Positions 15,162-31,051 of a stretch of DNA of 34,281 nt are shown in pieces. The DNA is from a virus. The stretch's first letter is position 1; every line of letters starts with the position of its first letter. The notes beneath the pieces were generated by a model that saw nothing but the letters and a program-made list of their open reading frames with translations, was not told where the DNA came from and ran no database searches. Where the stretch lies: the IMG/VR virus record IMGVR_UViG_3300045136_000478, positions 1-34,281 of that record; one strand, written 5' to 3'. The position numbers were made by a program, and so were the translations under genes.

Positions 15162-15797
15162 TCACGGCCTCCGACGGTACGGCTGCAAGCGGTGGCGCAC
15201 CGAGACGGGCATGCCGCGCCCCGCGAAGATGGCCTCCGCCTCGGGGACGACCGTGTACCCCGCCTGCGAGCTCGAGGCGAACGTCCCCGGGTTGGCCGTG
15301 AGGTTCTTCACCCACTCGAGGCACGCGAGCTTCACGTCCTCCGGCACCTCCGGCATCCCCCAGGAGCCCGTCACCGATGCCTGCCAGCCGAAGCCCGGCT
15401 GCACGGGGGCAACGCTCGGCGGGATCGTCACGATCCCGAGGTACGTGCCTCCCGGGGCTCCCCCGACCGGCCGCAGCCGGTACTCGTCCGAGGAGAGCGA
15501 CTGTGGATCGGCGGTGTCGCTGTACAGCTCGACGCTCGTCGCGGCAACGAGGTCGTAGGGCGCGAGATCGATCCAGCCAACGACGGCACCGTCGAGGATC
15601 ATGCGTCGCAGCGTGAACGCACGCGTCGCCGTCCCGGCCGGCCGGAACTCGCGCTCGCAGTACGTCCAGATCGCGCTCGAGCAGAGGTTGACCGCGTCCA
15701 CGAGCAGTCCGTCCCGGGAGCCGTCGTTCTCGTCGCGCCAGCAGTACGAGCGCGCCTCCTCGAGGCTGACGAGCGCCCGAGAGCTGAGGTCGTTCAC
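15162..15797 (-). CDS. Head-tail connector (adaptor) protein
   Basis: 211 residues from GTG 15797, overlapping the upstream TGA. The opening SLEEARSYCWRDENDGSRDGLL and a helix AVNLCSSAIWTYCEREF are the pattern of HK97 gp6-like connectors, which sit under the portal. The middle (DLVAATSVELYSD, YRLRPVGG) is beta-rich, and a helix (EVPEDVKLACLEWVKNLT) follows. It is longer than the simplest gp6 proteins (about 110 residues), because of that inserted beta part. The frame continues upstream, but only as a shadow. Confidence 0.8.
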   Translation of the reverse strand: MNDLSSRALVSLEEARSYCWRDENDGSRDGLLVDAVNLCSSAIWTYCEREFRPAGTATRAFTLRRMILDGAVVGWIDLAPYDLVAATSVELYSDTADPQSLSSDEYRLRPVGGAPGGTYLGIVTIPPSVAPVQPGFGWQASVTGSWGMPEVPEDVKLACLEWVKNLTANPGTFASSSQAGYTVVPEAEAIFAGRGMPVSVRHRLQPYRRRP

Positions 15798-16111
15798 GCG
15801 AGCGCCTCGGCGTGCTCGACGACGAAGGAGACCTCCTCGGCGGCGTGCGCGGCTCCCGTGCCCTGGCAGTGGACGTACCAGGTTCCCTCGGCAGGCTCGA
15901 ACGTGAGTTCGTAGATGCCGGTCGAGGGGTGCGTCACCTCCGGATCCGTGCCGGCGATGTACGACGTCGGTGGCTCGAGCACCCCACCGATCCGTCGCCG
16001 CGCGGTGAAGGTGACGGCAGTGGGATCGGTCAGCACCCCCTCGTCGTCTGGCACGCGGAACTCGGCGTGGACGATGACCTGCGCGCCCTCCATGTAGACC
16101 TGCATGGCCAT
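15794..16111 (-). CDS. Beta-sandwich head/neck protein
   Basis: 105 residues from ATG 16111 (a second ATG at 16105 gives two residues fewer). It has alternating strands (GAQVIVHAEFRV, AVTFTARRRIGG, STGIYELTFEP, GTWYVHCQGTG, VSFVVEHAEAL) as in small Ig-like phage domains. It lies between the 18-residue-repeat protein and the connector. The stop codon of the upstream gene is part of the CGATAGG motif before its start. Confidence 0.65.
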   Translation of the reverse strand: MAMQVYMEGAQVIVHAEFRVPDDEGVLTDPTAVTFTARRRIGGVLEPPTSYIAGTDPEVTHPSTGIYELTFEPAEGTWYVHCQGTGAAHAAEEVSFVVEHAEALA

Positions 16112-16117
16112 GCCTCA

Positions 16118-16124
16118 CCTATCG
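16118..16124 (-). promoter_or_regulatory. Start-associated motif, copy 4
   Basis: The minus strand reads CGATAGGTGAGGC then ATG. The TAG inside the motif is the stop codon of the 18-residue-repeat gene, so element and stop are merged. The spacing is one base shorter than the consensus. Confidence 0.6.
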
Positions 16125-17549
16125 GTCGCAGGCGAGGAGCTCGAGCTCGACGTCTGCCGCAGCCGCCTGTCGGAGGACGATGGTCGAGGCGGGTCTCGAT
16201 TCGAGCCGAAGCCGGGCCGCACCGCTCACGCTCGTCGCTTGCGCAGCGGGCGTGCGCAATCCGAGGCTGACGAGGGCCGCAGGTGTGTGCGTGAGCGCGA
16301 GACAGGCACGGATCGTGACCCCCAGCTCGCGCGGCGCTCTTCCCGCGGCGATCGCTCCCCCGATCACGATCCCGACCGAAGCCGAGCCGCTCGTGCCACC
16401 CGCCAGGAGCCCGCTCGCTGATGCGGTGACGACCGCGCTCGGTGAGGTGCCGGCCGCTGCTGCCGCTCCGCCGGGCACGACGATCAGAGAGCCCGGGGAG
16501 TAGCCTCCCGCCGAGGCGCCACCGGGTGTGGGCGTCTCGGTCGTGCCGCTCTCGGCGTTCGGCGGGTACCCGCCGGCGGTCGCGCCACCTGGCACTGCGG
16601 CGACGACGGCTCCCGAGGGCGTGCCGGCAGCGAGCGCGCCGCCTGCCTGCGCCGTGACGACGGGAGCGGGAGCTACCCCCTGGGCCTGCGCGCCTCCGAT
16701 CCCGACCGTGGTCGCGGGCTGCGGGCTCTGTCCTTCGGCCGTGGCGCCGCCGATCTGCACTGGCGTCGCCGAGGTCGGCGCGACACCCTGCGCGACCGCT
16801 CCTCCGGCCTGCATAGAGGTCGAGACGGTCGGGCTCCGACCCTGAGCCAGCGCCCCACCCGCCTGCGCCGTGACTGTGATCGTGGGTTCGCGCCCTTGCG
16901 CGGTCGCAGCGCCAGCCTGGGCGGCCGCGACCGCGCTCGGGGAGACGCCGCCGGCGATCGCTCCGCCGGGCGTGGGCGTCTCCCTCGTGCCCTCGCTCGC
17001 GGTCGGCGCATTGCCGGCGGCGAGCGCGCCGCCGGGCGAGAGCGTGACGACCGCGCCGGCTTCGACCCCGGCCCCGAGCGCAGCTCCCGGCTGAGCCGTT
17101 GCAGCGACGCCGGGAGAGAGCCCCTGGCCGACTGCACCGCCAGTAGCGACGGCGACAACGGGACCGGGTGACGCTCCCTGAGCGGAAGCTCCTCCGGGCT
17201 GCGCACCTGCGGCCGCAGCGGGCGCGAGGCCCTGGGCGAGCGCGCCACCCGGCGAAAGGGCGACGGTCGGCTGCGGCGTCTGACCCTGGGCGAGCGCGCC
17301 GCCGGCCGGCACTGCGGTGGAGAACGTGGGCCCGAAGCCCCCGGCGATAGCTCCTCCGGGCGCGACGGCGGCGGCAGGCTGCGGCGAGACGCCTGCCGCA
17401 GGCGCCCCGCCCGGGGCTGCCCCCACGATCGCGACCGGCGCGAAACCACCGGCGAGCGCGCCCCCGGGCGGGACGGTGGGAGGCCCTGCCTTCGTCCCGA
17501 CCCATGCTCGCCGCCGGGCGAGTGTCCAGCGGCGCCGGTAGACCCCCAT
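16119..17549 (-). CDS. Gly/Ala/Pro 18-residue-repeat protein
   Basis: 476 residues from ATG 17549 with GGAGG 6 nt upstream. After a short basic leader (YRRRWTLARRRAW), residues 29 to about 407 are about 20 tandem repeats of 18 residues with consensus GGAxAxGxxPxxxxxxxP. Two 22-residue variants carry the same ETPTP insert. A non-repetitive beta-rich end of about 70 residues follows (TIRACLALTHTPAALVSLGL). The repeats contain almost no charged or aromatic residues. A regular A-x-A-x-G pattern every 18 residues fits a beta-solenoid or polyproline-like rod. Located between the capsid-accessory genes and the connectors, it may be a head or neck fibre. I do not recognise the family. Confidence 0.7.
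   Translation of the reverse strand: MGVYRRRWTLARRRAWVGTKAGPPTVPPGGALAGGFAPVAIVGAAPGGAPAAGVSPQPAAAVAPGGAIAGGFGPTFSTAVPAGGALAQGQTPQPTVALSPGGALAQGLAPAAAAGAQPGGASAQGASPGPVVAVATGGAVGQGLSPGVAATAQPGAALGAGVEAGAVVTLSPGGALAAGNAPTASEGTRETPTPGGAIAGGVSPSAVAAAQAGAATAQGREPTITVTAQAGGALAQGRSPTVSTSMQAGGAVAQGVAPTSATPVQIGGATAEGQSPQPATTVGIGGAQAQGVAPAPVVTAQAGGALAAGTPSGAVVAAVPGGATAGGYPPNAESGTTETPTPGGASAGGYSPGSLIVVPGGAAAAAGTSPSAVVTASASGLLAGGTSGSASVGIVIGGAIAAGRAPRELGVTIRACLALTHTPAALVSLGLRTPAAQATSVSGAARLRLESRPASTIVLRQAAAADVELELLACDR
16359..17465. repeat. About 20 tandem 54-bp units
   Basis: Each unit codes for 18 residues beginning GGA and carrying P at position 10. The protein repeat is far more regular than the DNA repeat, so the array is old or under protein-level selection rather than freshly amplified. 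Confidence 0.75.
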
Positions 17550-18065: not shown

Positions 18066-19445
18066 TCACATCCGTAGGAGAGTGTTGCGCGTGACCCGGC
18101 GGTCGGCGTAGACGAGACTGCGAGGGGGCGTGTAGTCCACCTCCAGGTAGCAGTAGTCGAGGTTGCCCGTCATCGCGGTGCTCGTCGAGCCCTTCGTCAC
18201 GCGGATGCGCGCCTCGATCGTGTCGCTCGTCTGCGCCGAGCGGAGCTGCGCGAGGGTGGGGGTGGGCGAGAAGGTCGCCTCGCCTGCCTCCTCGGTCGTC
18301 GTCGTCTTGACGGTCTCCGTGCCCGCGTTCGCGTTCCCGACGCGCGGCTGGAGACCCAGCGCGCCGCCGGTGACGGACGCCGTCATCCCCCACTCGACCT
18401 TGACCTTGACCGAGTTGATCGTCGAGCCATCGGGGATGCCCGGATCGCTGATGGTATGCAGTAGGGTGCCACTGTTCCCTACTGCTACCCAGGTCCCGTT
18501 GCCGTAGCCGACTCCGTTGAGCGACGGCGTGCTGTGCTCGTTTCTCGTCCACGCGCCCGTAGGGTCGGTGGCGTAGCGCAGCGCGCCGCTGAAGCCCACC
18601 GCCACCCAGGTTCCGCCGCCGTAGGCGACTCCGTAGAACGTTGTGGTGCCCTGAGGGTTGCTCGTCCACGCGCCCGTGGGATCGGTGGCGTAGCGCAGCG
18701 CGCCACTCCCACCTACCGCTACCCAGGTTCCGCCGCCGTAGGCGACGGACTCGAACGTCGTGGTGCCCTGAGGGTTGCTCGTCCACGCGCCCGTAGGGTC
18801 GGTGGCGTAGCGCAGCGCGCCGCTGAAGCCCACCGCCACCCAGGTTCCGCCGCCGTAGGCGACGCCCAGGAAGCCCGTCGTGCCCTGCGGGTTCGAGGTC
18901 CACGTCCCCGTGGGATCGGTGGTGTGGTACAGCGTGCCGCTGTCTCCCACCGCCACCCAGGTTCCGCCGCCGTAGGCGACTCCGTAGAACGTTGTGGTGC
19001 CCTGAGGGTTGCTCGTCCACGCGCCCGTAGGGTCGGTGGCGTGATACAGCGTGCCACCCTGGCCCACTGCCACCCATACGCCGTTTCCATAGGCGACTCC
19101 GTCGAACGACGCCGTGCCCTGAGGGTTCGAGGTCCACGTCCCCGTGGGATCGGTGGTGTGGTACAGGGCTCCACTACCACCCACGGCTACCCAGGTCCCG
19201 TTGCCGTAGGCGACGCCCAGGAAGCCCGCCGTGCCCTGCGGGTTCGACGTCCATGCGCCACCGACGAGCGGAAATGCCTCCGTCGTGATGTCGGGGAACC
19301 CGAAGTCCCCGCTCAGCGTCGCGTTCTTCGCGCTCGCGAGCGTCGCGTACACGTTGTCGCCTCTCAGCGCGTACGCGTTCTGCGGGTTCGTCCACCCCGT
19401 CGCGACGACGGTGTGACGGTTCGCGGGACGGCGCGTGATCGGCAC
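18066..19445 (-). CDS. Structural protein with inserted seven-repeat beta-propeller
   Basis: 459 residues from GTG 19445, directly after a TAG. Residues 1-62 (ATGWTNPQNAYALRGDNVYA, then GDFGFPDITT) and residues about 338-459 (IPDGSTINSVKVKVEWG, FSPTPTLAQLRSAQTSDTIE, LDYCYLEVDYTPP) read as the two halves of one beta-sandwich. Between them are seven 39-residue repeats with consensus WTSNPQGTTTF-GVAYGGGTWV, then AVGGSGALRYATDPTGA. The TDPTGxW turn resembles the Asp-box of BNR propellers, and seven units match a seven-bladed propeller. The repeats may bind a glycan or another ligand. It lies downstream of the major capsid gene, so a head-surface role is likely but not shown. Confidence 0.75.
   Translation of the reverse strand: MPITRRPANRHTVVATGWTNPQNAYALRGDNVYATLASAKNATLSGDFGFPDITTEAFPLVGGAWTSNPQGTAGFLGVAYGNGTWVAVGGSGALYHTTDPTGTWTSNPQGTASFDGVAYGNGVWVAVGQGGTLYHATDPTGAWTSNPQGTTTFYGVAYGGGTWVAVGDSGTLYHTTDPTGTWTSNPQGTTGFLGVAYGGGTWVAVGFSGALRYATDPTGAWTSNPQGTTTFESVAYGGGTWVAVGGSGALRYATDPTGAWTSNPQGTTTFYGVAYGGGTWVAVGFSGALRYATDPTGAWTRNEHSTPSLNGVGYGNGTWVAVGNSGTLLHTISDPGIPDGSTINSVKVKVEWGMTASVTGGALGLQPRVGNANAGTETVKTTTTEEAGEATFSPTPTLAQLRSAQTSDTIEARIRVTKGSTSTAMTGNLDYCYLEVDYTPPRSLVYADRRVTRNTLLRM
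18435..19253. repeat. Seven 117-bp tandem repeats
   Basis: Seven in-frame units of 117 bp code for the propeller blades. Several differ at only a few bases over long stretches, for example those around 18558 and 18792. The near-identity points to recent duplication or gene conversion; the seventh unit (nearest 18435) and the two outermost at the other end are the most diverged. Confidence 0.85.
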
Positions 19446-19727
19446 CTACATCGCCTCCGGGCGCGAGATCGCGCCCTGTCCGAGCAGCTCGACGAGGCCG
19501 CTCGCGCGCGCCGGGTGGTAGCCGACCGAGACGACGACCGGGCCGAGGTGTAGGTCGAGGTACGGCCCGTACGGGCCGTGGTCGCCCTGGCGGTGGCAGG
19601 GGTCGAGGTGCAGCCCGAGCGACAGCGTGCCGTCGAACCGCCACTGGACGAGCCAGCAGGGGCCGTACCACAGGCCCCAGGCCGGACCTAGGTGGTGTCG
19701 ATGAAGAGGATGCCCGCCGGATCCCAT
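19446..19727 (-). CDS. Small protein with HLDPC..GDHGPYGPYLDLHLG motif
   Basis: 93 residues if it starts at ATG 19727, overlapping the end of the upstream gene by 40 nt; no later ATG, GTG or TTG is in frame before the conserved part. The core (GLHLDPCHRQGDHGPYGPYL, then DLHLGPVVVSVGYHPAR) is a pattern I have seen in short phage proteins of unknown role. It touches the propeller gene start (TAG then GTG). His and Asp residues could bind a metal, but nothing proves this. Confidence 0.6.
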   Translation of the reverse strand: MGSGGHPLHRHHLGPAWGLWYGPCWLVQWRFDGTLSLGLHLDPCHRQGDHGPYGPYLDLHLGPVVVSVGYHPARASGLVELLGQGAISRPEAM

Positions 19728-20832: not shown

Positions 20833-22260
20833 CTAGAAGCTCGGCGCGACGAGTCCGGTGCCGCCGATGACCGAGGTCGCCGCCGGGTAGCGGCCACCGG
20901 TGAAGGCCACCTCGCCCCAGACCGCGAGCCTGACTGACTGCGGGGCGTTCGCCTGCTCGAACGTGAAGGTCCGCGGCCCGCCCGCCGGGTCGAGCCACAG
21001 ACGGTGGTCCTGCGGGCGGGTGACGATCACGACGTCCTCGTTCGTGCCGGCCCCGAGGTTCGTCGGGATGTTGTTGTCGGTCACGACGGGGAGCCCCTGG
21101 ATCGTGCCGACCACCGCCCCGTACTCGGGCGCGTCCCCGACCGCGAGCGCGTTGAACGGACCCTGCGCGTTCGGAACGGCGAGCGGCCTGCCGGCCGAGT
21201 CGAGCGTGCCCATGATCCACTCCCAGCGCCGCCCGTGCATGAGCGCGAGCAGCGGAGGCGCGTGCCGGTTGGTGACGATGCCCTCCTTGGCGCCGGCGAA
21301 CTTCGGGTAGAACTCGCCGACGGTCGGAGAGGCGTCCGTGTAGGTGATCGAGTTGATCCCCGCCACCGAGCGGAGGCCGAGCACGGTGCCCGCGGTGCCG
21401 TCGGCGTTCAGGCATGCCGCGTCCACCTTCGTCCACCAGTCGGCGATCAGATCGGCGAAGATCGTGTCGACCGCGTCCCGCGAGCGCTCGACCGCCTGCC
21501 GGGAGAGGTCGTTCTGCCCGGGGTACTGGCGGATCGGGACCGACATGAGCGTGTCGTCGAAGTCGGTCTCCTGGACGGCCGCGTTCTCGGCGGCCTGCGC
21601 GGCGACCGCCGTCCCGGTCGTGCCCCGCGGGATGTTGATCACCATGCCCTCCTCGGGCAGGTTGCGGCGCACGCCGGCGAGCGCTGCGAGGAACGGCGCG
21701 CCCGCCCGAGCGAGCGGGGCGTACTCGTCCACGAGGTACTGCGGGATCGTGAACCCGGAGAGCGCCCCGGTGCCCACGTCCCGCATCTCGCGCCCGAACC
21801 GCTCCCGGTACACGTCGGCCATCTGCCGCTCGTGCTGGACGAGCCGCTCGGCCGCGTCGGAGCGGTGCGCGAACTGCACGGCGTACACGTCGCGGGCGAA
21901 GTCGGCGAACGAGTGCCGGTCGGGCCGGTAGACGAGCTCGGCCCGGGCCCCGCCGCGCGGCGTCGGCTCCGGCCGGCGCCGGTCGGGCTCGGGGATGGCC
22001 GCCCGCCGCTCTTCTGCCTCCAGGTTCCCCTGGATGCGGGCGTACTCGGCGTGCGCGTCCTCGAGCGCCTGTCCCGTCGTCTCGAGTTCCTCGGCAAGCG
22101 TCCGCGCGGTCTCCGCGTACGCGGCCCGCTCGGCCTCGTCGGTCGGCTCGTCGCCGAGCTCGGCGATGCGGGCCCGAACGGCCTCCCATGCCTCCCGGGC
22201 GGCTCGCAGCGCGGCCTCGGCCGCGTCGCGCTGACGCGTCAACAGGTCGATGGTCTCCAT
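20833..22260 (-). CDS. Major capsid protein, HK97 type
   Basis: 475 residues. Residues 1-95 are a charged coiled coil (the delta scaffold domain: RQRDAAEAALRAAREAWEAV, LEETGQALE-type segments). A proline/arginine-rich stretch follows, then the HK97 fold from about residue 115 (FADFARDVYAVQFA, GFTIPQYLVDEYAPLARAG, GMVINIPRGTTGTAV, LPVVTDNNIPTNLG, FEQANAPQSVRLAVWGEVAF). It follows the prohead protease, which would remove the delta domain during maturation. Its ATG lies 1 nt after the protease stop. Confidence 0.93.
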   Translation of the reverse strand: METIDLLTRQRDAAEAALRAAREAWEAVRARIAELGDEPTDEAERAAYAETARTLAEELETTGQALEDAHAEYARIQGNLEAEERRAAIPEPDRRRPEPTPRGGARAELVYRPDRHSFADFARDVYAVQFAHRSDAAERLVQHERQMADVYRERFGREMRDVGTGALSGFTIPQYLVDEYAPLARAGAPFLAALAGVRRNLPEEGMVINIPRGTTGTAVAAQAAENAAVQETDFDDTLMSVPIRQYPGQNDLSRQAVERSRDAVDTIFADLIADWWTKVDAACLNADGTAGTVLGLRSVAGINSITYTDASPTVGEFYPKFAGAKEGIVTNRHAPPLLALMHGRRWEWIMGTLDSAGRPLAVPNAQGPFNALAVGDAPEYGAVVGTIQGLPVVTDNNIPTNLGAGTNEDVVIVTRPQDHRLWLDPAGGPRTFTFEQANAPQSVRLAVWGEVAFTGGRYPAATSVIGGTGLVAPSF

Positions 22261-30470: not shown

Positions 30471-31051
30471 GGTGCACCTCCTCTCGCTGCCAGAGCCGCC
30501 AGCTCGGCTCGGGGATCGATCCGCGACGGCTCACCCGCACCCGCACCCGCCCCGGCGTCCTGTAGTTCCGGTTCGGGTAACGGTGCGGGTGAAGGAGTAG
30601 TACTAGGGGACGGGACGGGAACGCGCGCGCGCGCCCGCGCGCGAGGAGACGGTCTCGTAGACGGTGGTGTAGACACCTCTGTAGACGCTTCTGTAGACGG
30701 TGGTGTAGACGGTGGTGTAGACACCTCTGTAGACGGTGCTGTAGACGATCGCTGTCGCCACCTCCGTTGCCTCTCGGCCTTCGTGGGATCGGTCGGGTTG
30801 TACTCGCGCCAGTCGTGCACAACCCACTCGTCACCGCTACGGTCGACGAGCCCGAGCTGTTCGCAGCGTTCGAGGAATCGGCGTGTCACTCCCGGCACCT
30901 CGGTGCGCACGCCGGCGACATCGATCACTCCATCCGTCCTGTGCCGTGCGCAGTAGCACAGGAGCCGCACCCAGGCGCGGAACTCGCGATCGCTCAGGCG
31001 TGCGATCTTCGGGTGGCTCGCGAACGCGTCGTCGATCCGAAGCCAGGCCAC
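30467..31051 (-). CDS. Replication initiator-like protein (phage replisome organizer N-terminal type)
   Basis: 194 residues from GTG 31051, which shares a base with the upstream TAG. Residues 1-95 are a winged-helix pattern typical of phage replication organizers: AWLRIDDAFASHPKIARL, EFRAWVRLLCYCARHRTDGV, FLERCEQLGLVDRSG, EWVVHDWREYNP. Residues 110-160 are a low-complexity (S-T-x-x)n tract encoded by 12-bp iterons, followed by an R-A repeat and a proline-rich tail. As with lambda O, the origin may lie inside the gene, in the linker between the DNA-binding and loading regions. Confidence 0.75.
   Translation of the reverse strand: MAWLRIDDAFASHPKIARLSDREFRAWVRLLCYCARHRTDGVIDVAGVRTEVPGVTRRFLERCEQLGLVDRSGDEWVVHDWREYNPTDPTKAERQRRWRQRSSTAPSTEVSTPPSTPPSTEASTEVSTPPSTRPSPRARARARVPVPSPSTTPSPAPLPEPELQDAGAGAGAGEPSRIDPRAELAALAARGGAP
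30622..30643. repeat. Alternating CG tract
   Basis: 22 bases of almost unbroken alternating C and G, with one CC break. It codes for the RARARAR run of the replication protein. Such tracts can adopt the Z form under supercoiling. It lies just 14 bp from the iteron array. Confidence 0.7.
30657..30752. repeat. Eight 12-bp iterons
   Basis: GTAGAC starts at 30657, 30669, 30681, 30693, 30705, 30717, 30729 and 30741, exactly 12 bp apart. The six-base fillers are mostly GGTGGT and ACCTCT, so part of the array also has 24-bp periodicity. In the coding frame they give (S-T-P/E-x)n. Perfect phasing in a replication gene suggests an origin iteron array; codon-level slippage of a disordered linker is the alternative. 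Confidence 0.85.

Follow-up and report, generated by a model that had tools for sequence, protein, structure and literature searches.

A predicted seven-bladed propeller inserted in a sandwich domain encoded among the head and connector genes of a phage

Gene, neighbours and repeat array

The window analyzed here is the whole 34,281-nt stretch IMGVR_UViG_3300045136_000478 (positions 1 to 34,281), and we call the 459-residue product of its gene at 18066 to 19445 on the minus strand the window protein. The open frame is on the minus strand, stops being present in the plus-strand frame, and its GTG start lies directly behind the stop codon of a small upstream open reading frame. Genes of the region run in one direction: upstream are the terminase, portal, protease, and capsid genes, and downstream are the head-tail adaptor, minor tail, and tape-measure genes. 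The major capsid protein is encoded at 20833 to 22260 (minus strand) and the head-tail adaptor, phrog_442, at 15162 to 16118 (minus strand); the terminase has Streptomyces phage TG1 as its best isolate phage, at 33% identity. A 476-residue Gly/Ala-rich protein with GGALAQG repeats is encoded at 16119 to 17549 (minus strand), and a short 24/48-bp tandem repeat lies within an open frame at 30647 to 30755.

Seven in-register repeats of 39 residues (117 nt) occupy 18444 to 19223 on the minus strand, with blades starting at residues 75, 114, 153, 192, 231, 270, and 309. Tandem Repeats Finder (TRF) gave a period of 117 with a score of 742 and a second program agreed, which bears out the seven repeats recognized in an earlier, sequence-only reading of this DNA. 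The same reading took the repeats to be nearly identical at the DNA level, and this did not hold: pairwise identity among blades 1 to 6 is 71 to 89% in DNA (median, 78%) and 64 to 92% in protein (median, 77%), and blade 7 is more diverged. The protein median lies above the 60% median blade identity that marks highly repetitive propellers (PMC9218822). A TDPTGxW turn closes six of the seven repeats; blade 7 has no such turn, and a strand contributed by the N-terminal side makes it complete. In the Asp-box motif, SxDxGxTW, which forms the turn between strands c and d (PMC9218822), the spacing of Asp and Trp is that of the window turn, [TA]TDPTG[TA]W, but the window turn has its Gly one place later and Thr or Ala in place of Ser. 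These turns, which the earlier reading had likened to Asp-boxes, are Asp-box-like only, and the Asp-box Pfam model had no match in the window protein in a Pfam scan.

Short reads assemble tandem repeats poorly, and the array or its repeat number could on that account be an assembly artifact. We give this a negligible probability and reject it in the main. The units differ at 11 to 29% of bases, and the longest exact tracts common to blades measure 86 and 83 nt and link blades that lie two or three units from each other; because these tracts are shorter than the usual 150-nt read, the assembly is unlikely to have collapsed or expanded the array. Independent contigs of different sequence also have seven blades, and with the closing strand counted in, each blade has exactly one strand d.

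Directly upstream of the window gene is a conserved small partner gene (19446 to 19676, minus strand) for a protein of about 75 residues, with the sequence WGxxYGxWWMVQW...GPYGPYVDLHLG. There is no ATG, GTG, or TTG near its conserved start, and the stop of the preceding gene is just upstream; it may use another start codon or depend on coupling. The partner gene also adjoins the gene for a related sandwich domain in L016, L017, L025, L026, and L028, and it precedes other large proteins in L022 to L024, one of which starts with an apparent related sandwich. Near the partner gene in L023 (2737 to 4056) and L024 (6250 to 7569) is a 439-residue protein with a metalloprotease-like HEMGHC motif, recognized by eye.

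Among relatives, the gene order in L025 is capsid, small partner gene, sandwich gene, and head-tail adaptor; in L026 the sandwich gene lies between the head-tail adaptor and head closure genes; and in L027 it adjoins a phrog_240 head protein. Because the neighbors of the window gene are capsid and head-tail adaptor genes, a location in the virion is plausible and the window protein is likely to be a surface protein of the particle. Alternatively, it might not belong to the particle at all and might serve the infected or lysogenic cell that makes it as an adhesin, either secreted or displayed on the host surface. That proposal, which we consider improbable, can draw on a distant relative of the sandwich, without the insert, in a cellular and apparently secreted Anaerolineae protein (L031), and on L016, where the upstream neighbor is transcription-regulator-like and a glycosyltransferase-like gene is nearby. 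It has to contend with the window protein having no leader before the sandwich and with co-directional capsid, adaptor, and tail genes on both sides, likewise in L025 and L026. L025 is a prophage in an Anaerolinea genome, which is a hint, and only that, as to the host of the window phage.

A sandwich domain with and without an insert

The front half of the carbohydrate-binding-module (CBM)-like sandwich comprises residues 1 to 54 (19284 to 19445, minus strand) and ends in ..SGDFGFPD, and the back half comprises residues 337 to 440 (18126 to 18437, minus strand) and begins with GIPDGSTINSVKV. Both were delimited by alignment, the front half with insert-less L025 and L026, and by a structural model. 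Between them, the inserted propeller takes up residues 63 to 336 (18438 to 19259, minus strand), as delimited by the model and by structural matches over residues 62 to 334, its first strand being the one that completes blade 7. Taken together, the two flanks look like a single domain, and the earlier placement of the sandwich at residues 1 to 62 and 338 to 459 agrees with these edges.

The insert is absent from four relatives. L025 has a contiguous sandwich, FGFPDLAASDIPDGATI, in which the corresponding stretch is SGDFGFPDLAASDIPDGATITAV, with zero repeats. L026 and L041 likewise have contiguous sandwiches (FGFPALNIPPGS and FGFPALSLPPGS, respectively) with junction stretches (GDFGFPALNIPPGS and GDFGFPALSLPPGS) that lack the insert, and the more distant homologue L027 is also insert-less. 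In these homologues, from the Anaerolinea prophage and several phage contigs, a loop of few residues links the sandwich halves. These homologues with contiguous halves show that one sandwich has been split by an insert in the window protein, confirming the earlier view of a single sandwich interrupted by repeats. A complete seven-blade insert is found at the corresponding place in two other phages, L016 and L028, and L017 has an insert there whose propeller is cut by the contig end. The three complete insert-bearing sandwiches (window, L016, and L028) cluster in a tree with 89/90 support, a grouping that would be compatible with a single insertion event.

Other fusions were seen in passing. 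In L025, L026, and L041, the sandwich continues into low-complexity repeats like those of the Gly/Ala-rich window protein. In L018 (7959 to 8675), an insert-less related sandwich precedes a Hint (intein/hedgehog-like) domain, for which the Pfam Hint_2 match (E value of 2.7e-6) is just under the cut-off. In L037 (5335 to 8763), a similar seven-bladed propeller stands behind a different N-terminal domain and is followed by long TADAIV repeats; this fusion suggests that the propeller is a module that can pass from one anchor to another.

Sequence searches detected neither a propeller nor a CBM relationship. Pfam and PHROG scans of the window protein gave sub-threshold matches only, and a PDB sequence search gave no useful relative. 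The joined sandwich had no match among isolate phage genomes, the L026 sandwich reached Streptomyces phage VWB only at an E value of 0.3, and a class-level genome search returned the genome of L025 and three weak matches.

The folds described here are predicted. An AlphaFold2 model of the window protein, built on an alignment of only six related sequences, has a closed ring of seven four-stranded blades at high confidence (mean pLDDT of 80.9, with the repeat region mostly at 80 to 96); its pTM of 0.67 leaves the relative orientation of the domains unfixed. Foldseek placed chains of YCF48 at the top (E value of 1.4e-12, TM score by target of 0.68 to 0.73) and also matched the seven-bladed designed propeller v13WRAP-T (TM score by target of 0.81), and VIA-align against a designed seven-blade propeller gave a Z score of 31.5 and an rmsd of 2.3 over 267 residues (model range of 63 to 334). 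The structure prediction check proposed with the sequence-only reading therefore came out in favor of a closed seven-bladed propeller. Modeled alone, the L025 sandwich (pLDDT of 87.2, pTM of 0.82) is predicted to be a beta-sandwich of the CBM kind, matching CBM16 and CBM4-like chains. Its likeness to jelly-roll CBMs (CBM16, CBM4, and CBM61; Z score of about 10.5, rmsd of 3.5 over 126 residues) is one of fold only, identity being about 10% and the phage sandwich differing in carrying an insert.

Sialidases have Asp-box-like turns, and phage endosialidases use a propeller (PMC4901313), so the window propeller might be supposed to cleave polysaccharide on the host surface enzymatically, in the manner of sialidase-type tailspike propellers. 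We hold this to be highly improbable: among blades so close to uniform a single catalytic center does not stand out, no enzyme family was matched, and the best structural matches are non-enzymatic.

Blade number, homogenization, and variable positions

Seven blades were counted in each of the four complete propellers of this kind, those of the window, L016, L028, and L037. The nearest neighbor of every blade in the window, L028, and L017 proteins is a blade in the same protein, which supports homogenization or re-amplification of blades within these proteins. L016 has no blade with an internal nearest neighbor, and its blades are not homogenized. Between phages, the sandwich is 69 to 82% identical in its front half and 56 to 73% in its back half, and same-position blades are 39 to 59% identical. 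Within the window gene, synonymous differences affect 6 to 56% of shared-residue codons per blade pair, and the bulk of the amplification is therefore not of very recent date; what holds of the earlier suggestion of recent blade amplification is amplification or homogenization within the protein. The identical tracts of 83 to 86 nt are the expected trace of exchange between non-adjacent blades or of block duplication.

Change of the propeller by recombination between repeats may occur. A changing repeat number as a mode of variation, which we checked among related phages as the earlier reading had proposed, was not supported, every complete relative having seven blades. That the number stays at seven despite homogenized blades makes the blade count look constrained.

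Propellers often act as protein-protein scaffolds. The window propeller could similarly have a structural or spacing function in the head or neck, serving in decoration or in contacts with neighboring virion proteins and not in host binding, a reading in keeping with the fixed number of seven and with the position of the gene among head and connector genes. We think it unlikely. Insert-less homologues occupy equivalent places in other phages, so the propeller is dispensable for the role of the anchor, and the blades diverge faster than the sandwich.

Variation within the blades is concentrated at two positions. In the window protein, the most variable are position 2 (residues 76+39n) and position 16 (residues 90+39n), with an entropy of 2.24 bits each; by the strand limits of the model, position 2 is at the start of strand a and position 16 in the b-c turn. 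Across six related propellers, which are not fully independent, the same two positions had the top mean variability rank, a result equaled in 0 of 20,000 shuffles, and in the window alone a crude test of whether changes concentrate there gave P = 0.17, which is not significant. The pN/pS is 1.21 at these two positions versus 0.34 elsewhere, values near saturation. By the usual propeller topology, both positions would share one face, and the sandwich tethers, entering into strand d and leaving from strand c, would lie on the opposite face, a placement taken from strand order and not from coordinates. Variation on the face away from the tether fits a displayed binding surface; surface exposure alone may also account for it. 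Two other phage proteins of 1,200 to 1,500 residues, in L002 (7758 to 11477) and L003 (7755 to 12275), consist almost wholly of 40-residue blades, more than 20 in each, and their variable positions are the same two per blade as in the window.

Proposed role and relation to known propellers

The best explanation overall, and one that we consider somewhat probable, is that the window protein is a virion surface protein with a sandwich anchor and a displayed propeller adhesin. The CBM-like jelly-roll sandwich would be the conserved anchor, and the closed seven-bladed propeller would be held on two tethers between two of its strands, both reaching a single propeller face at the start of strand d and the end of strand c. 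Positions 2 and 16 would then point away from the anchor, on the opposite face. The propeller would most likely be a displayed adhesin for a host surface glycan or protein, with blades homogenized within most phage lineages and outward positions that differ; ligand binding is plausible from the fold and the position of the variation. A more specific proposal, which we put forward tentatively and think rather unlikely to be right as a whole, is that within-gene exchange keeps the blades alike and that, at the same time, each blade diversifies at its two outward positions, so that the particle would carry a ring of constant size with 14 variable positions. If true, a binding surface would be varied without a diversity-generating retroelement and without a change in repeat number.

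In its working, the window protein would find its closest parallels in phage receptor-binding proteins with propellers, of which phi11 Gp45 (five blades), PRD1 P2, and PhiKZ gp131C (seven blades) are known (PMC4901313), and in particular in phi11 Gp45 and PhiKZ gp131C. These too are phage proteins with proposed host-ligand binding; however, theirs are tail, baseplate, or spike propellers with diverged blades, whereas the window propeller is encoded in a head/connector cluster and inserted in a sandwich. YCF48, a photosystem II assembly factor (PDB 2xbg and 5ojr), likewise has seven blades of about 40 residues, but it is 18% identical and free-standing, with no sandwich around the propeller, and is not a phage protein.

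In its evolution, the window propeller would seem to resemble highly repetitive propellers and, less certainly, the WD domains of fungal NOD-like receptors. It shares with the former (Pereira and Lupas 2022, PMC9218822) a median blade identity above 60% and within-protein amplification, and differs in being inserted into a loop of a separate domain and in the constant blade number of its complete relatives; the text of that study mentions phages 0 times. The WD repeats of the fungal receptors het-d/het-e (PMC4986451) are similar within a protein and vary at a few positions on one face, four per blade compared with two in the window propeller. The het-d/het-e repeats differ in having a polymorphic blade number and demonstrated diversifying selection (PMC4986451), whereas the window kind has a constant number and, at most, putative selection. 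The former are WD40 and the latter Asp-box-like in sequence, and we claim no common descent.

Phage propellers and highly repetitive propellers were already known; what is new here is a complete propeller in the loop of a virion-type sandwich, together with clean insert-less relatives. Paper searches, whose coverage of subscription journals was slight, turned up no description of such an insertion into a phage sandwich, which is weak evidence of novelty. The locus provides a clean with-and-without case of domain insertion, in which one phage sandwich occurs with or without a whole propeller beside the same small partner gene. It also extends the known settings of internally homogenized propellers to a structural gene cluster of a phage. 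If the outward positions are selected for diversity, this would be a case of phage binding-surface variation resembling that of fungal NOD-like receptors.
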